NCBI RefSeq assembly: GCF_007752345.1
Contig: NZ_CP036299.1
Coordinates: forward strand, 1,565,001-1,629,000
Direction: 5' to 3'
Origin: Planctopirus ephydatiae
GTDB lineage: Bacteria; Planctomycetota; Planctomycetia; Planctomycetales; Planctomycetaceae
DNA length: 64,000 nt
The notes beneath the pieces were generated by a model that did not search any database, had not been told where the DNA came from, and saw only the letters and a program-made list of their open reading frames with translations. Each line of letters opens with the position of its first letter. The first letter of the stretch is position 1. Below, piece by piece: positions 7,416-16,931 of this stretch. The translations under genes were made by a program, and so were the position numbers.

Positions 7416-8564
7416 TTATCTTGCCATGCGTTTTTTGCGGCCTTTAATGAAGCTTTCAATGACGAGGTTTCCCAGATCGCCGGCGTTGCAGTAGGCTGAG
7501 ATGCCGCCGGTGACTTCGGCCATGCGTTGAACGAAGTTTACCAGTTCGAGGTAAAAGTAATCTTCAATGAGTGCGAAGCTGGAGATGCTGATCCCTTCTG
7601 CCGCACAGCGTTTGGCTTCTGCTAAAGTAGCCAGCGCGGTCTGTTCGCTGGGAGGGTAGATCAGCATGAGATCTCTGCCCTCGACATGAGCTGTGGGCTC
7701 GCCGTCGGTGACGATGAGGATCTGTCGATTCTGAGTGGGCTGCTTATTGAGGATCCTGCGGGCGAATTGCAACCCTGCATGGATATTCGTGAAGTGTTGT
7801 GGCACGAATGCCGGTGAATTATCGAGAGGAATGCGCAGCCGGATCCGTGGGTCGTACATGCTGACAGGTTTGGGGGCCGAGGCAAACAGTTCTTTAGAGC
7901 TTAAAGGGCTGGCATAGGTATAGAATCCGACGATCTGGAGAAAATCTCCTTGGTAGCGGCCGTTGATCAGGGCCTGTAAAGCCATGGCGACGCGTTTGGC
8001 CGACCCGTATTTACCCATGCGAGTCATGCTGCCGGACATATCGACCAGGAGGACTGTGGCACAGTTGGTCTGATATTGCTGATCGTAAAGAACGAGGTCG
8101 TCTTCCTGGATGTGGATCTGCTGGTCGGCGAGTTTGCCTTCCCGGGCGTGGCGAGACATGGCAGACCGCATCGTTTCGTGCAGGTTGAGATTGGAGATGG
8201 CGTCTCCGAATTCATATTTCTTGGATTCATCCTGCAAGACTTCGCCCGGGCCGCGAAAATCGACCTGATGTTTGCCGAAGGAATCTTTGCGTTGGACCTG
8301 GAAGAGTTCATCGAGGGCTCGATTCTCGACGCGTTTGAGTCCTTTGGGGGTGACGGAGTACCGTCCTTCGCGATCTTTTTCGACGAGGCCCTGACGGATG
8401 AGCATGTCTACGACATCGGGTTGTTGCTCTTCCCAATCGCTCAGGTTGTCGAGGACTTCGTCTCCGTATTGCAACATGTACTCGGAGAGCTGGTCGAAGA
8501 GTTCGTCGGCCGATTGAGGGGAGAACGCGTTGTTTTCGTCATAGCGTGAGTATCGAAAATCCAT
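7416..8564 (-). CDS. VWA-domain protein
   Basis: A 382-residue cytosolic-looking protein ending in a von Willebrand factor A domain. The MIDAS metal site is visible as LLVDMSGSMTR (DxSxS) near residue 172, followed by ILIVTDGEPTA near 287 as the later acidic loop. The first 150 residues (FDQLSEYMLQYGDEVLDNL and onward) are helical and include a likely winged-helix-like piece, RYSVTPKGLKRV. Such proteins generally work with a MoxR-type AAA ATPase to remodel or load metal into other proteins, but no MoxR gene is adjacent. The start at 8564 (MDFRYSRYDE) follows GGGAAAAG; the same frame is open upstream to 8759 without a family-like sequence. Confidence 0.82.
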   Translation of the reverse strand: MDFRYSRYDENNAFSPQSADELFDQLSEYMLQYGDEVLDNLSDWEEQQPDVVDMLIRQGLVEKDREGRYSVTPKGLKRVENRALDELFQVQRKDSFGKHQVDFRGPGEVLQDESKKYEFGDAISNLNLHETMRSAMSRHAREGKLADQQIHIQEDDLVLYDQQYQTNCATVLLVDMSGSMTRMGKYGSAKRVAMALQALINGRYQGDFLQIVGFYTYASPLSSKELFASAPKPVSMYDPRIRLRIPLDNSPAFVPQHFTNIHAGLQFARRILNKQPTQNRQILIVTDGEPTAHVEGRDLMLIYPPSEQTALATLAEAKRCAAEGISISSFALIEDYFYLELVNFVQRMAEVTGGISAYCNAGDLGNLVIESFIKGRKKRMAR

Positions 8565-9136
8565 GAGCTTTTCCCACGACAGAACAATCGGCCGGCTGAC
8601 GAGTCTCTGAGTACGGCAACTCTTGGCTGCATTGTAGGCGAGTTGAGGCTGCGGGCGTGCATTTCTTTTGGGAGCAAAACTACAGGGACTTGCTTTACGA
8701 AAGTGTGAACGTAATAACAGTGTTTCGGCCAATTGGTGTGTGTGGAGTGGGATTTCCACGAACCTCGACTCATTTTCTCAGGTAATACCAACAGAGTGTG
8801 TTATTGGCATTGTCTCGGGCATCGGCTTTCGTGTGTAAAAAATAGCGGGTAGCAGCGGAGGGGTGGGGAAGTAGTCCTTAGCGTAACCTCCTGAAAATTT
8901 TGCAGTTCAGTTGGTTTTTTGGTGTTGTGACTGAGGTGCAAGTTCGCGACGATGGAGAAGTGTGTTTCAAAAAAGCTTTTGTGGTCAATAATGACTCGGT
9001 TTCTCGACTGCCGTAGATTCTGCTTGTGAGTTGGTGATTGTTGAGTTGAGTGAGTTGTTCAGAAATTTGCTGGTCGTTTGCAGGAAGCTGTGAAGTCGGC
9101 CGTTCACTTTAGAGCCTTGATTTGGGCGGAAAACCT
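8565..9136. promoter_or_regulatory. Divergent intergenic region
   Basis: This 572-base stretch separates the VWA gene (minus) from the DUF1549/1553 gene (plus) and must hold promoters for both. I see no gene and no clear -35/-10 pair. Near 9027-9060 short GTTGAGT-like direct repeats occur. Confidence 0.4.
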
Positions 9137-11017
9137 ATGACAAACAATGATTCTCAGGCAAAAGTCGGTTCAAGCTGGCGAAAAGCTGGTGTGCTGGCCT
9201 GTGGGCTGTCGCTGGCAGTTTCGGCGTTTTCCGGTTTCGCTCTGTTCGCTCAGGGATCCCTGTTGGCTCAGGAGATGGAAGCCAAGCCGGGGATGTCTGA
9301 CAAGCCCGGGATGTCCGATAAGCCCGGGATGCTGAAGCCGGGTGCGAAAGCGGCAGAGATGAAGGGTGACATGGAGGCGATGGATGGGCCTGCCATGAAA
9401 GCTTCGGGAGCGAAAGCTGCTGGTGGCGGTGATGATCTTCCTGCCCGCGTTAAGCCTGCAACGAACAAGCCGGGTGTCCGAACGGCAGCGTCGGATCCCG
9501 TTGTGCAGTTCATCAATGAAAGTCTTCGCCAGGGGTGGAAGGACAATGATGTTGAGCCTTCTCCGATGGCCGATGATGCCGAATGGATCCGTCGGGTATA
9601 CCTCGATATTGTCGGGAGAATCCCCTCGGCTGAAGAAGTTCAGGATTTTGTTGCAGACAAAAGCAAGACTAAGCGATCGGAGCTGATTGAAGCTCTGCTG
9701 GAAGATCCGGGTTATGTGCGGAACTTTACGACCATCTGGACGAACCTGTGCATTGGTCAGCGAACACCTCGCCGTGTGAGCCGGACCGGGATGCAGAAAT
9801 TCTTCCGAGAAGGATTTGCCAAGAATCGTCCCTGGAACGAAATGGTTTTTGATCTGGTCTCGGCTGAAGGTCACTTCGAAAAGAATGGAGCGACGAACTT
9901 CATTCTGGCACAAATGCAGGACAACGATGACGGCGTGCAGCTGACAGCGAAGACGACCCGCCTTTTCATGGGGATGCAGGTCCAGTGTACACAATGTCAC
10001 AATCATCCGTTTAATGAATGGAAACAGGATCAGTTCTGGCAGTTCAACAGCTTTTTCCGGCAAGTTCGCAAGATGGATCATCAGAAGCTTGACCCTCGAA
10101 CCGGGCGGCAAGTGGATGATTACTCTGAAGTTCTCTTCCGTGACTTCAGCGGTCCAGTGTTTTTTGAGAAACGTAGCGGTTTGATGCAGGTGGCCTATCC
10201 GATTTATCTCGGAGCCGAAGTCGATGCCAGCGAAGGAGTTGACCGCCGAACAGAGCTGGCCAAGCTGATGACATCTGGCGAAAAGCCTCTGGTGGCAACG
10301 GCTTATGTGAACAGGATGTGGGGTCACTTCTTTGGTTACGGGTTCACCCGGCCGGTCGATGATATGGGCCCACATAACCCATCTTCCAATCCCGCATTGC
10401 TGGATCGGTTGTCGGATGAGTTTGTCAAAAGTGGCTATGACTCCCGCCAGCTTATTCGGTGGATTGCGAATGCAGAGGCCTACAGCCTGACGAGCCGGGG
10501 GATCAAGAAAAACGAACGAGATAACCCGGCTGCTGGTGAAACTCCTTTGTTCAGCCATATTTACGTCAAGCCAATGCGGGCGGAGCAACTCTATGACTCG
10601 CTGATTGTCGCGACGAATGCTCATAAAACAGGTCGTGCTGGTTGGGAGCAATCTGAAGAGCAGCGGCAAGAGTGGCTCCAGCAGTTCGTTCAGACTTTTG
10701 GTACTGACGATAACGAAGAATCAAGTGGTTTTGATGGGACGATTCCTCAGGCCCTGATGATGATGAACGGGCCGTTGACGCGTGATGCCGTGGCTTTGAA
10801 GCCTGGCTCACATCTGGCCGAAGTCCTTGCCGGTAAAGGGAATGAGCGACAGAAGCTCAACATTCTCTATCTGTCGGTTCTCAGTCGCATGCCAACTGCG
10901 GCCGAATGGGCTCGATTCCAGAAATATGCTTCGAGTTCTGGTGGAAACCTGATTCCGGTTTATCAGGATATGTTCTGGGCTTTGCTGAATTCGAACGAAT
11001 TTATCTTCATTCACTAG
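9137..11017 (+). CDS. Secreted DUF1549/DUF1553 protein
   Basis: A 626-residue exported protein. The start at 9137 (MTNNDSQAKV) has GGCGGA upstream; an in-frame TTG at 9122 is less likely. The signal segment VLACGLSLAVSAFSGFALF is followed by a low-complexity linker containing KPGMSD repeats (21-base DNA repeats near 9286-9330) and Ala/Lys-rich sequence. DUF1549 begins near residue 120 (RRVYLDIVGRIPS) and includes CTQCHNHPF near 284. DUF1553 runs from about 368 (AYVNRMWGHFFGYGF) to the end. No PSCyt1 or LamG part is present. It is paired with the DUF1501 gene at 11135. The C-terminal 500 residues closely resemble those of the 886-residue protein at 13501, so the two are paralogues. Biochemical role unknown. 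Confidence 0.92.
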   Translation: MTNNDSQAKVGSSWRKAGVLACGLSLAVSAFSGFALFAQGSLLAQEMEAKPGMSDKPGMSDKPGMLKPGAKAAEMKGDMEAMDGPAMKASGAKAAGGGDDLPARVKPATNKPGVRTAASDPVVQFINESLRQGWKDNDVEPSPMADDAEWIRRVYLDIVGRIPSAEEVQDFVADKSKTKRSELIEALLEDPGYVRNFTTIWTNLCIGQRTPRRVSRTGMQKFFREGFAKNRPWNEMVFDLVSAEGHFEKNGATNFILAQMQDNDDGVQLTAKTTRLFMGMQVQCTQCHNHPFNEWKQDQFWQFNSFFRQVRKMDHQKLDPRTGRQVDDYSEVLFRDFSGPVFFEKRSGLMQVAYPIYLGAEVDASEGVDRRTELAKLMTSGEKPLVATAYVNRMWGHFFGYGFTRPVDDMGPHNPSSNPALLDRLSDEFVKSGYDSRQLIRWIANAEAYSLTSRGIKKNERDNPAAGETPLFSHIYVKPMRAEQLYDSLIVATNAHKTGRAGWEQSEEQRQEWLQQFVQTFGTDDNEESSGFDGTIPQALMMMNGPLTRDAVALKPGSHLAEVLAGKGNERQKLNILYLSVLSRMPTAAEWARFQKYASSSGGNLIPVYQDMFWALLNSNEFIFIH

Positions 11018-11134
11018 AACATTCTGTGGTTTCGGTGCGTTATTCAGTAGAGAAATCTACAAAGTCAGTCGAGTCAGTCAGTCAAGTTCTTCAAACAAGT
11101 TCAATTTGTCAAATTGAGAGTCGGAGATCAGTTT

Positions 11135-12454
11135 ATGTCAATTTTCCAGCCTGACGGTATGAGTCGCCGACACTTTGTGCGGCACCTGGCAGCGACAGCT
11201 GCAACAATTCCGGCTCTTGAATTCATCTCTCATGTGCGGGCCAACGCAGCAGAGCTGAAGAAGAACCAGAAGTCTTGCATCCTCATGTGGATGAGTGGTG
11301 GTCCCCCCACCATTGACATCTGGGATCTCAAGCCTGGTTCCAAGAATGGTGGCGAATTCAAGCCCATTTCGACCAAGGGCGATCTGCAGATCAGTGAGCA
11401 TATGCCGAAGACCGCTCAGGTGATGAATCATCTGTCAGTCGTGCGTGCTATGAGCACCCGCGAAGCTGACCATGGTCGTGGCACCTATTTCATGCATACA
11501 GGCTATGTTCCTAATCCGACGGTCGTGCATCCATCCTTTGGCTCGGTGGTAAGCTACGAGCTGGGAACCAAGCGGAAGGAGCTGGAAATTCCAGCATTTG
11601 TCTCGATTGGTGGCGGTCGTGAAGGAACAGGCCCAGGCTTTTTGGGGATGTCCAACGCTCCCTTCGTGGTGGATTCGAACGGTGGTATTCGCAACGCTGA
11701 CTTGAATGGCGTGTCAGCCGGTCAGTTGGGTCGCCGCCTGGATATGCTGGGCTCTGTTGAAGAAGGTTTCATCAACTCGCAGCGTGGTGAGTCTGGTCAG
11801 TCTCACAAGGAGATTTACCAGAAGGCTGTGAATCTGATGACTTCGAAGCAGATGGACGCTTTCAAGGTGGCTCAGGAATCACCTGAAACTCTGGCTCGCT
11901 ACAGTCCAACACCGAATGGTAATGCCATGGGTGGTGGAATGGGTGGGATTAGCGGCTTTGGTCGTGGCCTCCTGATGGCCCGTCGCCTGGTCGAATCCGG
12001 TGTGCCATTTGTGGAAGTCGATTTCGGCGGCTGGGATCTCCACAACGATGTCTTCAATTCGCTGAAGAATCGTATGCTGCCCCAGTTGGATGCCGGGATT
12101 TCCGCTCTGGTCACCGACCTCAAAGAGCGTGGCATGCTCGATAACACGGTCATTGTGTGGATGGGTGAGTTTGGTCGTACCCCTCGAATCAACCAGAATA
12201 CTGGTCGCGATCACTGGGCAGCCAGTTGGTCGACGATGATTGGTGGCGGTGGTCTGCGTGGTGGTGTGGCTGTTGGCGAGACCGACAGTGACGGCATTGC
12301 AGTCGCCAGCGGCAAGAGCTATCTGCCAGGAGATATCTGGGCCACAGCGGCACATGCTCTGGGGATTCCTCTCGATACCGTGCACACTTCGAAGCGTGGA
12401 CGCCCGATGAAAATTGCTAACGGTGGAACACCGATTAAGGAATTGATTTCCTAG
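11135..12454 (+). CDS. Tat-exported DUF1501 family protein
   Basis: A 439-residue DUF1501 protein. The N-terminus [20 protein letters not shown] has the twin-arginine pattern and a hydrophobic stretch, so export by the Tat system is likely. Core motifs: [19 protein letters not shown] near residue 52, [20 protein letters not shown] near 105, and [13 protein letters not shown] with GRDHW near 342, which mark the sulfatase/alkaline-phosphatase-like fold. The start at 11135 follows CGGAGA; an in-frame TTG lies at 11114. It forms a pair with the DUF1549/1553 gene 117 bases upstream, a conserved planctomycete arrangement. A GC-rich hairpin closes the unit at 12555-12587. Confidence 0.93.
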
Positions 12455-12777: not shown

Positions 12778-13386
12778 ATGAGTACTTCACCGTCTGAGCA
12801 ATTTGAGCCTCAAGTCAATCCTGGTGAGGGAGTTGAGGCTTTGACTTTTCAGAAGGACAACGGTTCTGAACCAGCTTCACAGGCTGAGTTTGTGCAGCTG
12901 TTTACCAGGTCTCAAAGAAGGTTGTATTTATATATATTGTCCCAGGTGCCGCATCCGGTTGAGGCTGAAGAGATTCTGCAGGAAGCCAATGTCATCGCCT
13001 GGACGAAATCGTCTCAGTATCGCAGTGGCAGTAATTTTTTTGCCTGGGTCTGTCAGATCGCTCACTTCGAGATTCTCAAGCATCGCAGTCGGCAGAAGCG
13101 AACGAAGCTCAGATTCAGCGATGAGTTTATTGAGCAGGTGGCCAGTGAAGTTGTTGAGCAGGTGGATGAGCTGGAGTCTCGTCGGCTGGCTTTAAAGCAT
13201 TGTCTGGGAAAATTGCGAGATAAAGACCGAGAACTGATTGAGTCCCGCTATGCTCCCGGTGAGCGTGGTAAAGACCTGGCTTGCCAGATTGGACGACCAG
13301 CGAATTCCGTCTATCAATCATTGGGAAGAATTCGCCGTACACTCATGGAATGTATTCAGCGGCAACTGGCAGTTGAGTTTCATTAA
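12778..13386 (+). CDS. ECF-type RNA polymerase sigma factor
   Basis: A 202-residue sigma-70-family factor with only regions 2 and 4. Region 2 spans about residues 40-110: EAEEILQEANVIAWTKSSQY is the region 2.2-like core and FFAWVCQIAHFEILKHRSR the 2.3/2.4 helix. Region 4 covers about 140-195, with LRDKDRELIESRYAPGERG and a helix-turn-helix ending RPANSVYQSLGRIRRTL. It matches the ECF group expanded in Rhodopirellula and Verrucomicrobium. The next gene begins 114 bases downstream and has an anti-sigma-like N-terminus, so the two probably form a sigma/anti-sigma pair. Target promoters are unknown. Confidence 0.9.
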   Translation: MSTSPSEQFEPQVNPGEGVEALTFQKDNGSEPASQAEFVQLFTRSQRRLYLYILSQVPHPVEAEEILQEANVIAWTKSSQYRSGSNFFAWVCQIAHFEILKHRSRQKRTKLRFSDEFIEQVASEVVEQVDELESRRLALKHCLGKLRDKDRELIESRYAPGERGKDLACQIGRPANSVYQSLGRIRRTLMECIQRQLAVEFH

Positions 13387-13500
13387 GTTCGATCTGTCGT
13401 TTTACTAATCCTGAGATATGCGTCAGAAATTACCTGTAGTGACTGTGGACTGATCGAGAACTGATCTGACCGAGGCTGATCTCGAAGAGAACTGAGAAGT

Positions 13501-16161
13501 ATGTCGACCTGGAATGACGAACTCTGGCAACTGCTCGAAGCATTGTGCGAAGATCGCATAAATGCCGATGGGCTACTGCGGCTGGAGCAGATTGTTCTCT
13601 CGTCGAAAGAGGCCAGGCTCTTCTATATTCGATACATCGATCTGCATGGATCACTCTATTGGAATGCGGCCTTTGGCGCTCGGCAGGACGAAGTTTCACC
13701 AGTTGCTGATGATGATGCCGTGCAGGCTGCAGTTTCCGATGCTGAAGTTGATCGAGACTCGGAGTTTAAGGAGAGCCCTGACGAGTTGACCTGGGAGCAG
13801 TTCTCGTCATTGATGGTCGAGAACATTCCAGAAAATGAACCTCTGGTGTCAGTATCGACCGATACGGAAGTTGCTCTTCCGGAGACGAAAGATACTCTCG
13901 GGCCCGAAGGTTATCTCTGGCAGGAACTCCCCTCCAGGTTAACAGCCGTTAAAGCAGTGGCAACGGCATCTCAGTTGTCTCCTGCCGGGAAATCGACTCA
14001 CGGTTCGACCTCCTGGCTGAGTGGGATGTTGGGCAAGGTCAAGTCGCGACGCAGTCGACGCCTTAAGAAATGGGTGAAATCAACGGGCTCGGCATATGCC
14101 GGTATTGCCGCTGTGCTATTGGTGTGTTTGTCGGTCGCTTTGTGGCAGCAGATTCCTGGACGGAGTGGCCAATTTCTGGCGAGTTTGTGGAAGCCCGCTG
14201 CTAAACTTGATGCGCCACTGGCAAATCATGCGGATCTGTCGATATCGGATCCAGCCGGTTCGCTAACAAAGGTTAATACCAACGCACATCCTGCTGTTGA
14301 GATCAATGGGCCGCTCAATCGTTCCAATTCCGAAACGACAGCTCGAACGAACGGTCGAACACCAGTGGCATTGCCACTTTCAGTACTCGATAACCCTCAG
14401 GGAGTTTCGCAGGCCAGTCCGACAGAGGAACTGATTGCTCAGCGTGCTCAGGCTCTTAAAGAGCAGCAGGCGATGGCTGAAGAGGCCGCACGGATTAAGT
14501 CGCTGTCGGAATCTGTCAGTGCGTTTGTGAAGTCGCCCTCCAAGCCGTCGATTGCATTTACCTATCCTCAAGGTCGGTTTTCCAGTGCCCAAGTCGTCTC
14601 TCAAGTAAACGACTATCTGACGAAGACTTGGAAAGAGCAGAACCTCACGCCGGCTCCATTGGCGAGCGAGGCTGTGTGGCATCGCCGAGTCTATCTGGAT
14701 CTTGTCGGCCATATTCCCACGTCAGCAGAGACCGAGGCCTATCTGTCGGATCGTTCTCCCGGACGGCGAGAGCGGCTGGTGGATCGATTGCTGGACGATC
14801 CTGGCTTTGCCCGCCATCTGGCGACGACCTGGACGAATCTTCTCGTTGGTCGGCATGGACTGGAGACAGCCGATCGCCAGGCTTTACATGAATACCTGCG
14901 TGTCAGCTTTGCCGGACATCGCCCATGGAACCGCATCGTCGAGGATCTTGTATCTGCCAGTGGGCGTTCCCACGAAAATGGGGCAACGAATTTCCTGCTG
15001 GCCAACTTGAATCAAGATGCTTTGGCAGCCACCACCAGAACCGCCCGATTGTTTCTCGGGCAGAGCCTCGACTGCGTGCAATGCCACCAGCATCCCTTTG
15101 ACGATGCTCGTCAGGCTAAATTCTGGGAATTGAACAGCTTTTTCCGTCAGGCCAGCAGTCGCCCCGTTCTAGTGCTGGATCAGCAGACGGGAAAACGGGT
15201 GCAGGTTGCTCACGAGTTATATGATCTGCCTGTCGCTGGCCCGGTTTATTTTGAGACGACGAATCAGACATCTGTCGCTGCTTTTCCTCGCTGGGCAGGG
15301 CAAGAGGTTGATGATTCTGCCACAACGCGCCGGCGGGTGGAGTTAGGGCGTATTCTGGCTGAAGATCACGATCATCAATTGGCACGTGCTTTCGTGAATC
15401 GCCAGTGGAGCCAGTTCTTCGGTCGAGGGTTTACGACTCCGGTGGATGATATGGGGGTTCACCAGCCGCCAGTTCATCCTGAGCTGCTCGCGTTGCTGAC
15501 GCGCAGTTTCGTTCAGGAGAACTACAGCATTCGGGAACTGGTGCGTTGCATGGTGAACTCGAGGCCCTACCAGTTGGCCTCTATCATGGATTTTGATTCT
15601 GCTCCCAAGCCCCTGTCGAATGCCACGGGTAGCGAGTCAGTGATCCGGGAGGAATACACGTCTTTTGAATTCATGCGTGCCCGGCCACTTTCTCCTGAGC
15701 AGATCTTTGATTCTTTTCTGATCATGAAAAGTCCTGTTCCAGGGCAACAGCAGTTCTGGATGGAAGCTATTGAAAAACGTCAGGAATGGATCGCACCTTT
15801 TATTCAACAACTTCCAACTGAAGAGAATCTTGAGACGAGTCTCTATGCTTCGCCATTACAGGAAGTGCTCACGCTGATGAACGGCGATCTGACTCAAGAT
15901 CTGCTTTCTGCCACATCCGGGACGCTTCTTGCGGAAACATTGAAGCGATATACCAGAGATGTCGACCGCGCGAATGCTCTCACGATGGCCATTGTGTCCC
16001 GCAAAGCGACTGAAACGGAATTGACCATACTTCGAGCCGCTTTATCGAAGGTCGCGGGTAAAGTCAAAAATGGCGAAAATGCCGAAGTGCTGACCCTTGA
16101 TCTCTGGCGTGATTTTGCCTGGGCTCTGCTGAATTCGTCTGAGTTTCGCATGAATCACTAG
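13501..16161 (+). CDS. Anti-sigma-like N-terminus fused to DUF1549/DUF1553
   Basis: An 886-residue inner-membrane protein. Residues 1-60 (LLEALCEDRINADGLLRLEQ, then FYIRYIDLHGSLYW) match the short helical module that opens planctomycete FecR/LamG-type anti-sigma proteins. A low-complexity cytoplasmic stretch leads to one membrane segment at about 198-217 (AGIAAVLLVCLSVALW). The outside part has a Q/A-rich linker, DUF1549 from about 363 (RRVYLDLVGHIPTS, CVQCHQHPF near 526) and DUF1553 from about 610 (AFVNRQWSQFFGRGF) to the end. Position just after an ECF sigma gene suggests it holds that factor at the membrane and responds to something sensed or done by its outer domain; this is inference. 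The outer part is a paralogue of the 626-residue protein at 9137. Unlike that one it has no DUF1501 partner. Confidence 0.85.
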   Translation: MSTWNDELWQLLEALCEDRINADGLLRLEQIVLSSKEARLFYIRYIDLHGSLYWNAAFGARQDEVSPVADDDAVQAAVSDAEVDRDSEFKESPDELTWEQFSSLMVENIPENEPLVSVSTDTEVALPETKDTLGPEGYLWQELPSRLTAVKAVATASQLSPAGKSTHGSTSWLSGMLGKVKSRRSRRLKKWVKSTGSAYAGIAAVLLVCLSVALWQQIPGRSGQFLASLWKPAAKLDAPLANHADLSISDPAGSLTKVNTNAHPAVEINGPLNRSNSETTARTNGRTPVALPLSVLDNPQGVSQASPTEELIAQRAQALKEQQAMAEEAARIKSLSESVSAFVKSPSKPSIAFTYPQGRFSSAQVVSQVNDYLTKTWKEQNLTPAPLASEAVWHRRVYLDLVGHIPTSAETEAYLSDRSPGRRERLVDRLLDDPGFARHLATTWTNLLVGRHGLETADRQALHEYLRVSFAGHRPWNRIVEDLVSASGRSHENGATNFLLANLNQDALAATTRTARLFLGQSLDCVQCHQHPFDDARQAKFWELNSFFRQASSRPVLVLDQQTGKRVQVAHELYDLPVAGPVYFETTNQTSVAAFPRWAGQEVDDSATTRRRVELGRILAEDHDHQLARAFVNRQWSQFFGRGFTTPVDDMGVHQPPVHPELLALLTRSFVQENYSIRELVRCMVNSRPYQLASIMDFDSAPKPLSNATGSESVIREEYTSFEFMRARPLSPEQIFDSFLIMKSPVPGQQQFWMEAIEKRQEWIAPFIQQLPTEENLETSLYASPLQEVLTLMNGDLTQDLLSATSGTLLAETLKRYTRDVDRANALTMAIVSRKATETELTILRAALSKVAGKVKNGENAEVLTLDLWRDFAWALLNSSEFRMNH

Positions 16162-16184: not shown

Positions 16185-16931
16185 ATGCAACTTATGACAT
16201 CACTCTCAAAAGTCCGAGGTCTATTCGTCACCGGAACCGACACTGATGTGGGCAAGACCTATGTCTCCTGCAGGATCATTGAGGCCCTGCTGAGTTCGGG
16301 GCATAACGTGGGTGCTTACAAACCCGCCTGCTCTGGTGCGATGGTTTCCAGTCAGGGGTCTTCCTCATTGCCGGAATGGCATGATGTCCATGAGTTGTGG
16401 AGTGCCACCGGCCAGCGGTTTCCGAAATCGCAAGTTTGTCCACAATGTTATTTAGAGCCACTGGCACCTCCTTTAGCTGCTGCCCGGGAAGGTCGCACTG
16501 TGTCGGCTGAGCAACTGCGTTCTGGTGTCGATTGGTGGCTGGATCGAGTCGATCTGCTGCTTGTCGAAGGGGCGGGAGGAATCTTTGCCCCGATCTCTGA
16601 GCAGGATGTTGTCCTGGATCTGGCTGTCGATCTCGGCTTTCCCATGCTGATTGTCGCACGCCCGGGCCTAGGAACTATTAATCATACACTGCTGACAATT
16701 GCCGCCATCCGGCAGCGGGATTTACCAATTACTGGCGTCGTGATGACGTCGGCATTGCCCTTTGAACAGCAATCGGTCATGGAGAACATCAAGGAAATAA
16801 CAGACCGCTCCGGAGTGCCAGTTCTCGCTGTGATAGAACCTGATCAACCCTGGCCCGCCACGATCGATCCCGCAGCCTACTTTTCTCGCTCTCCAAACCC
16901 GACTCATCAGGAACTTCAAGTTGGCAAGTGA
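16185..16931 (+). CDS. bioD: Dethiobiotin synthetase
   Basis: A 248-residue P-loop enzyme that closes the ureido ring of dethiobiotin from 7,8-diaminopelargonate, CO2 and ATP in biotin synthesis. Seen: the glycine-rich ATP loop GTDTDVGKTYVS at about residues 16-27, the substrate loop YKPACSG near 46, LVEGAGGIFAPI near 125, and the ribose/adenine region toward the C-terminus. Length is typical. ATG at 16185 and a second ATG at 16194 are both possible starts; neither has a clear ribosome site. It lies only 23 bases after the anti-sigma fusion gene and may be read from the same transcript. No other bio gene is in the window. Confidence 0.93.
   Translation: MQLMTSLSKVRGLFVTGTDTDVGKTYVSCRIIEALLSSGHNVGAYKPACSGAMVSSQGSSSLPEWHDVHELWSATGQRFPKSQVCPQCYLEPLAPPLAAAREGRTVSAEQLRSGVDWWLDRVDLLLVEGAGGIFAPISEQDVVLDLAVDLGFPMLIVARPGLGTINHTLLTIAAIRQRDLPITGVVMTSALPFEQQSVMENIKEITDRSGVPVLAVIEPDQPWPATIDPAAYFSRSPNPTHQELQVGK

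Follow-up and report, generated by a model that had tools for sequence, protein, structure and literature searches.

What does the membrane protein encoded directly behind an extracytoplasmic function (ECF) sigma factor gene of Planctopirus ephydatiae do to that sigma factor, and how far does the system around the two genes extend? The question is raised by a 64,000-nt stretch of contig NZ_CP036299.1 (positions 1,565,001-1,629,000, forward strand; hereafter the window, to which all coordinates refer), in which a first-pass annotation had paired an ECF gene with a protein starting at 13501 that seemed to combine an anti-sigma-like N-terminus with the domains DUF1549 and DUF1553, and had suggested that a putative heme-binding periplasmic module might thereby be coupled to transcription in a single polypeptide. 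Both open reading frames (ORFs) are present, the ECF gene at 12778-13386 and the gene for the 886-residue protein at 13501-16161, and the sigma factor is confirmed by a TIGR02989 score of 153.6 bits, which exceeds the curated cut-off of that group, alongside a Sigma70_r2 match of 40.3 bits. The pair is real, but the unit is more than a sigma/anti-sigma pair, having the order short DUF1549/DUF1553 gene, DUF1501 gene, ECF gene, fused anti-sigma gene. Because a promoter and the first two of these genes lie upstream in the same direction, the start of the unit was placed at 8759. We consider it likely that this cassette is a self-regulated ECF sigma/anti-sigma switch made up of the following parts:

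8757-8786, + strand: predicted ECF-type promoter of the cassette, CGAAC-N17-GGTAA, with -35 element at 8759-8763 and -10 element at 8781-8785 (position weight matrix, PWM, score 21.3)
9122-11017, + strand: short DUF1549/DUF1553 protein, 631 aa from a TTG start (Pfam PSCyt2 162.6 bits, PSD1 130.2 bits)
11114-12454, + strand: DUF1501 protein, 446 aa (Pfam 339.9 bits; Tat signal match under the Pfam cut-off)
12778-13386, + strand: ECF sigma factor of the TIGR02989 group, 202 aa (153.6 bits against a cut-off of 124.55)
13501-16161, + strand: fused protein, a predicted membrane anti-sigma with DUF1549/DUF1553 outside, 886 aa (ORF, Pfam, AlphaFold2)
13501-13692, + strand: predicted anti-sigma domain of the fused protein, residues 1-64, three helices (AlphaFold2; Foldseek top chains MucA/RsiW; couplings with the ECF)
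14089-14148, + strand: predicted membrane helix, residues 197-216 (helix in the AlphaFold2 model; hydropathy of relatives)
14605-15153, + strand: DUF1549/PSCyt2 domain, residues 369-551 (Pfam 137.2 bits, over cut-off)
15073-15087, + strand: CVQCH (CXXCH) motif, residues 525-529 (sequence)
15331-16158, + strand: DUF1553/PSD1 region, residues 611-886 (Pfam 95.5 bits in two stretches, over cut-off)

Between the ECF gene and the fused gene lie 114 bases. The fused protein is a member of the PSCyt2/PSD1 proteins, both domains scoring above the Pfam gathering values. The short paralogue, for which an ATG at 9137 offers an alternative start, carries the motif CTQCH and is probably secreted, judging by eye from its hydrophobic N-terminus.

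We take the 64-residue N-terminal module of the fused protein to be, very probably, an anti-sigma domain. In the AlphaFold2 model of the whole protein (69 rows; alignment A3, i.e., P0001 plus 68 of 74 complete relatives, near-duplicates removed by eye), helices were placed at residues 4-16, 22-34 and 36-64 with mean predicted local distance difference test (pLDDT) values of 91-96 for residues 11-50 and of 78 and 68 at the two ends, and the same three helices were obtained when the module was modelled alone (75 aa, 79 rows; pLDDT 82, predicted template modelling score, pTM, 0.61). When the module was compared by Foldseek with 350,542 PDB chains, ranks 1-5 went to small chains (69-79 aa) of AlgU-MucA and SigW-RsiW entries, taken from their length to be the anti-sigma chains, and rank 6 to a chain of a SigE-ChrR entry; since none of the E-values over these ranks (0.97-3.4) is significant alone, it is only the ranking that is telling. 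VIA gave Z 6.4 for the RsiW entry 5wuq_D (67 aligned, root mean square deviation 4.1) and Z 5.5 and 5.0 for the MucA entries 8z6g and 6in7, followed by an unrelated row at 4.1, values that are weak by themselves for small helical folds. Model and ranking together point to the three-helix N-terminal fold of anti-sigmas. The annotation had thus recognised the right kind of helical module, although its extent is the first ~64 residues and not 200. Among 39 of 40 modules (alignment A1, L115 left out), no family of Pfam or NCBIfam recurred, each matching at most one module up to E 1; single weak matches such as zf-HC2 (E 0.022) and the anti-sigma family LIMLP_03685 (E 0.14) were rejected as the family of the module, and a PDB sequence search gave no relative of it below E 0.16.

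The company that the module keeps was followed in two overlapping sets of loci. The whole-genome set comprises 40 regions, picked for a suitable match in 40 of the 61 family genomes sampled; the named set holds the best 80 of 164 loci from a scan of public genomes, namely one isolate and otherwise metagenome-assembled genomes, filed as Planctomyces, Schlesneria, Gimesia, Thalassoglobus, Planctomicrobium, Fuerstiella or unnamed Planctomycetaceae, with a few loci filed under Kuenenia or Rhodopirellula. An ECF gene lies directly before the module in all 120 of these cassette loci, so that conservation in relatives, on which the annotation had staked its pairing, was borne out. Outside the family the same holds for 38 of 39 places (exception L262), which were chosen from the listed matches mostly by E-value and not at random, L276 (100 bases, filler region) being excluded, and for 60/60 further places, among which are family members and probably one more cassette (L286); pooled, 98 of these 99 places have an ECF gene ahead of the module. 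The adjacency is not chance, and the module is encoded next to an ECF gene in the manner of class I anti-sigmas (120/120 cassettes, 98/99 further places). With starts assigned by a nearest-ATG rule, 18 of 40 loci show a 4-base overlap between the ECF stop and the module start. In the window genome itself the module was found at three places (E <= 1), one after each of the three TIGR02989 sigma factors over the cut-off.

A physical contact between the two proteins is suggested by sequence covariation. A mean-field coupling analysis was run on 194 unique ECF/module pairs (effective number of sequences, Neff, 111), including intra-protein pairs at least 6 apart, and of the 21,543 pairs scored the most strongly coupled one was inter-protein, between F117 of the ECF and V32 of the module (z 10.7). 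E124-R39 at rank 4, V121-V32 at rank 9 and F117-L33 at rank 14 complete a pattern that packed helices would give. With permuted pairings the maximum was 1.61 (12 permutations) or 1.36 (10 permutations) as compared to 3.25 for the real ones, and in disjoint halves of the data F117-V32 ranked 3 of 9,075 inter-protein pairs (cassettes) and 7 of 7,335 (others). Binding of the neighbouring ECF by the N-terminal ~64 residues, acting as an anti-sigma domain, is strongly indicated by sequence.

Beyond the module, the AlphaFold2 model continues with a linker of low confidence, the helix at 197-216, which we read as the membrane helix, a coil, and a C-terminal part that is modelled confidently over most of its length (full model: mean pLDDT 73.3, pTM 0.64). 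Of 79 fused proteins, 73 have one membrane-like segment between module and DUFs and 3 have two; in 73 of these 76 the N-side is more positive than the C-side, which places the N-terminus in and the DUFs out. Sequence features thus strongly indicate, as the annotation had proposed, that a single membrane helix anchors the protein and that DUF1549/DUF1553 lie outside the cytoplasm. The full-length model had no match in the PDB by Foldseek at E <= 0.001 and weak VIA rows only, and the PDB sequence search with the fused protein returned no relative up to E 1.

The cassette as a whole recurs in most of the family genomes sampled. In the whole-genome set, ECF and module are present in 40/40 loci, the fusion in 39/40 (L105 has it split over two frames, and L122 is truncated where its contig ends), the DUF1501 gene in 37/40 (absent from L091 despite 5 kb of room, and from L121 and L123 at contig ends) and the short gene in 35/40. 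The named set gave ECF and module in 80/80, the fusion in 78/80 (L158 is split, L200 stops at a contig end), DUF1501 upstream of the ECF in 75/80 and the short DUF1549/DUF1553 gene upstream of the ECF in 60/80. Nine of the 20 named loci lacking the short gene have too little room for it, and the 11 with room keep DUF1501; of the five lacking DUF1501, four are no more than 1 kb away from a contig end, and the fifth, L178, has 1.9 kb before its ECF. Fusion and ECF were present in 29/29 further strong-match loci. A search for the module in the 61 family genomes, several of them incomplete, found a match on a frame of at least 688 aa in 44 (not all opened), on a shorter frame in 4 (G009, G019, G029, G045) and no cassette-type match in 13. 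In L158 and L105, whose contigs are both 34,997 bases long, module and DUF1549/DUF1553 lie in two successive frames, either a real split or a sequencing error.

Self-regulation is suggested by a conserved ECF-type promoter in front of the operon, as in autoregulated ECF operons. After removal of exact duplicates, 84 of 104 upstream regions were left (36 whole-genome, 48 named loci), and the pattern CGAAC-N17-GGTAA occurred in 42 of them versus 2 on the reverse complement, with a mean of 0.94 and a maximum of 5 in 200 shuffled sets. When a PWM was tested on held-out regions in two folds, 28/42 and 28/42 regions beat 99% of shuffles (reverse complement 0 and 0), and scores above 14 were reached by 58/84 cassettes as compared to 0/38 ECF upstream regions outside the family. 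The site at 8757-8786 is the sole one with a score above 15 on either strand of the 64 kb. At 8 of the 11 named loci that have room for the short gene and lack it, the motif stands before DUF1501 (the PWM was trained partly on these loci), and no promoter was found in the gap between DUF1501 and the ECF, where the best PWM score was 2.1. A larger regulon was rejected, as the strict promoter pattern shows no genome-wide excess over the reversed pattern; self-regulation is therefore the only target that can be supported.

In the likely switch, the anti-sigma would keep the ECF at the membrane when no signal is present. A change in the DUF1549/DUF1553 part, or cleavage of the linker, would release the ECF, and the freed sigma factor would then use the CGAAC-N17-GGTAA promoter at 8759-8785 to transcribe its own cassette, presumably yielding more short DUF1549/DUF1553 protein, DUF1501 protein, ECF and anti-sigma. 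The coupling of sigma factor and sensor that the annotation had in mind thus has strong support from the anti-sigma-like fold, the near-universal adjacency, the inter-protein couplings, the gene overlap in many relatives and the conserved promoter, while the direction of control, by sequestration or by FecR-like activation, is one that we infer.

Several observations weigh against this picture. The couplings join module helices 2 and 3 to the stretch after sigma region 2, and a passage of PMC7406223 reports the contacts of class I anti-sigmas as helix 1/sigma4 and helix 4/sigma2, so the top couplings lie elsewhere than these interfaces, at an Neff (111) that is small. Apart from F117-V32, the top pairs differ between the cassette half and the other half; the top 100 hold 39 inter-protein pairs where 37 are expected, i.e., no over-representation; the sets are small, with shared ancestry incompletely removed; and mutual information with average product correction over 88 family rows rose weakly above control windows, too weakly to count alone. 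Two of the three module matches in the window genome are weak (E 0.008 and 0.012), and a script for ECF/module pairs retrieved 0/2 of them. As for the promoter, the halves of the held-out test are not independent by descent, sharing close relatives because the 84 regions mix whole-genome and named loci; the window motif lies 336 bp before the TTG start, so that the 350-bp window first scanned could not hold it whole; and the strict consensus is in no excess, with 21 matches versus 25 for the reversed control pattern in the window genome and 177 versus 203 in the 61 genomes, in which no wider regulon was found. Finally, DUF1501 is missing despite room in G040 (L091) and in L178, and sensing of this partner can therefore not be universal.

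The partner genes give hints as to what such a switch might respond to. The window genome has 28 DUF1549/DUF1553 and 30 DUF1501 places over the cut-off, and 24 of the 28 DUF1549 genes are followed within 4.5 kb by a same-strand DUF1501 gene. The two sister ECF/module systems of this genome, L127 and L128, lie ~14 kb apart at 2.67-2.69 Mb; one has DUF1552 and a PSCyt1/PSCyt3/DUF1592 protein as neighbours, and L128 has FecR, PSCyt1/PSCyt2/PSD1 and DUF1501. This pairing and these PSCyt-type neighbours favour the sensing of a partner or pathway. As the sensor is paralogous to the effector and DUF1549/DUF1553 and DUF1501 genes are mostly paired, the signal that we tentatively put first is the DUF1501 partner, through its state or its supply, or else the state or supply of the reaction run by the pair.

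DUF1549/DUF1553 was met on this module only within the family, a profile search finding it on 0/39 module proteins outside. There the module is joined to FecR, LamG, CBM96, WD40, serpin or alpha-2-macroglobulin domains (Pfam, 20 of the 39 scanned; 3 without a match). At L253 (2635-5073, +) an ECF gene accompanies a module joined to a full serpin domain (Pfam E 1e-110), and at L252 (3801-9485, -), L256 (4408-11676, -) and L277 (4464-10400, -) the module is joined to alpha-2-macroglobulin (MG2, A2M, TED). A membrane-like segment follows the module in L253 and L252, and L256 was read from a doubtful start. Since serpin and alpha-2-macroglobulin are both protease traps, these domain orders suggest suicide-substrate sensors of foreign proteases; none of the papers listed in a literature search joined such ECF/anti-sigma systems with these domains. 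In L241 (5264-6988, -) WD40 beta-propeller repeats come after the module, along with a FecR match slightly below the cut-off.

A more speculative proposal, which we hold to be possible though rather improbable as a whole, is that the anti-sigma mimics its own effector: its DUF1549/DUF1553 part and the short paralogue would compete for DUF1501, or for the product of DUF1501, free partner would release the ECF, and the cassette would titrate itself back; more widely, planctomycetes would hold an unmodelled anti-sigma module on effector-like or protease-trap domains (DUF1549/DUF1553, serpin, alpha-2-macroglobulin) that double as sensors.

Among the alternatives, the fused protein could itself be the working DUF1549/DUF1553 partner of DUF1501, a trigger enzyme whose anti-sigma domain only reports workload or serves as an anchor. 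In favour of this, the 11 named loci with room have no other DUF1549/DUF1553 gene in the cassette, and many residues are more than 90% conserved in long (fused) and short proteins alike. However, each form has its own conserved differences and most cassettes (60/80 named loci) encode a separate short paralogue, and we regard this explanation as rather doubtful.

The CXXCH motif might instead bind a c-type heme, with release of the ECF governed by the loading or redox state of the site; heme loading or redox state there is our second, unlikely choice for the signal. The motif is found in 75 of 79 fused proteins, or 75 of the 76 covering the site, as three of the four misses are cut by contig ends, and in 59 of 60 short proteins, where the one exception (L130) is likewise truncated by a contig end. 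Retention in 75/76 fused and 59/60 short proteins is consistent with such a role; the short paralogue, however, presumably does not sense and keeps the motif too, which may therefore serve a common chemistry. Moreover, no second ligand was identified, and the complete fused protein of L131 lacks the motif (AEHLQ in its place), retained by its short paralogue.

Alternatively, the N-terminal domain could be a positive, FecR-like partner required for ECF activity and not an inhibitor. According to a passage of PMC7406223, ECF activity requires the 59 N-terminal residues of E. coli FecR, and a FecR domain occurs on many proteins with this module; on the other hand, the best-ranked PDB folds of the module are inhibitory anti-sigmas and no FecR domain is seen in the window protein (PF04773 not found by Pfam up to E 1), so that we judge activation of this kind improbable. 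That the adjacency is a mere operon of convenience, with a module that does not touch the ECF, appears very improbable, since common ancestry of neighbouring genes may inflate couplings but the 98/99 further adjacencies, many with unrelated C-terminal domains, and the F117-V32 coupling in both halves speak against it.

The favoured sigma/anti-sigma switch resembles the class I anti-sigmas MucA, RsiW, RseA and ChrR in its helical N-terminal domain of similar (modelled) fold, its place beside an ECF gene, its membrane helix and its outside part. It differs from them in that this outside part is DUF1549/DUF1553, in that no recurrent Pfam or NCBIfam model falls on the module, and in that the couplings fall on residues other than those in the relevant passage of PMC7406223. 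It shares ECF group and module with planctomycete ECF systems whose module carries FecR or LamG, including L128, where a PSCyt1/PSCyt2/PSD1 gene and a DUF1501 gene come next; in contrast to the single polypeptide of the window, anti-sigma and DUF1549/DUF1553 protein are separate genes there. As cited in a passage of PMC2754498, Studholme 2004 proposed the Rhodopirellula baltica ECF RB10049, which is up under heat, cold and salt (PMC2754498), as regulator of RB10051, a PSD1 and PSC2 protein, i.e., of a DUF1549/DUF1553 protein. An ECF near a PSCyt2/PSD1 gene was thus proposed already in 2004, and the window system is a variant of that kind; the likeness is one of description and not of compared sequences, and the R. 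baltica genes are named apart, with no fusion described in that passage. A passage of PMC5615132 states that PSCyt2 and PSCyt3 genes adjoin two unknown families and that PSCyt genes have no known function, and surveys of planctomycete ECFs are mentioned in PMC8103513. No description of an ECF anti-sigma fused to DUF1549/DUF1553 was found in titles and abstract starts, the primary planctomycete ECF surveys not being covered.

Two neighbours frame the cassette. A divergent gene (7416-8759, - strand), whose product shows by eye a motif (VDMSGSM) like that of von Willebrand A domains, begins at the cassette promoter, and the intergenic site may therefore serve both directions. Immediately after the cassette follows a dethiobiotin synthetase-like gene (16185-16931, + strand; by eye).

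For planctomycete biology, the cassette is a handle on the DUF1549/DUF1553 and DUF1501 families, of which the window genome has tens of copies, and its N-terminal part is a pointer to an anti-sigma module that has no Pfam or NCBIfam model. Planctopirus is a genetically tractable genus, and a dedicated sigma switch with a defined promoter (8759-8785) makes the response of the DUF1549/DUF1553-DUF1501 pathway a testable question.

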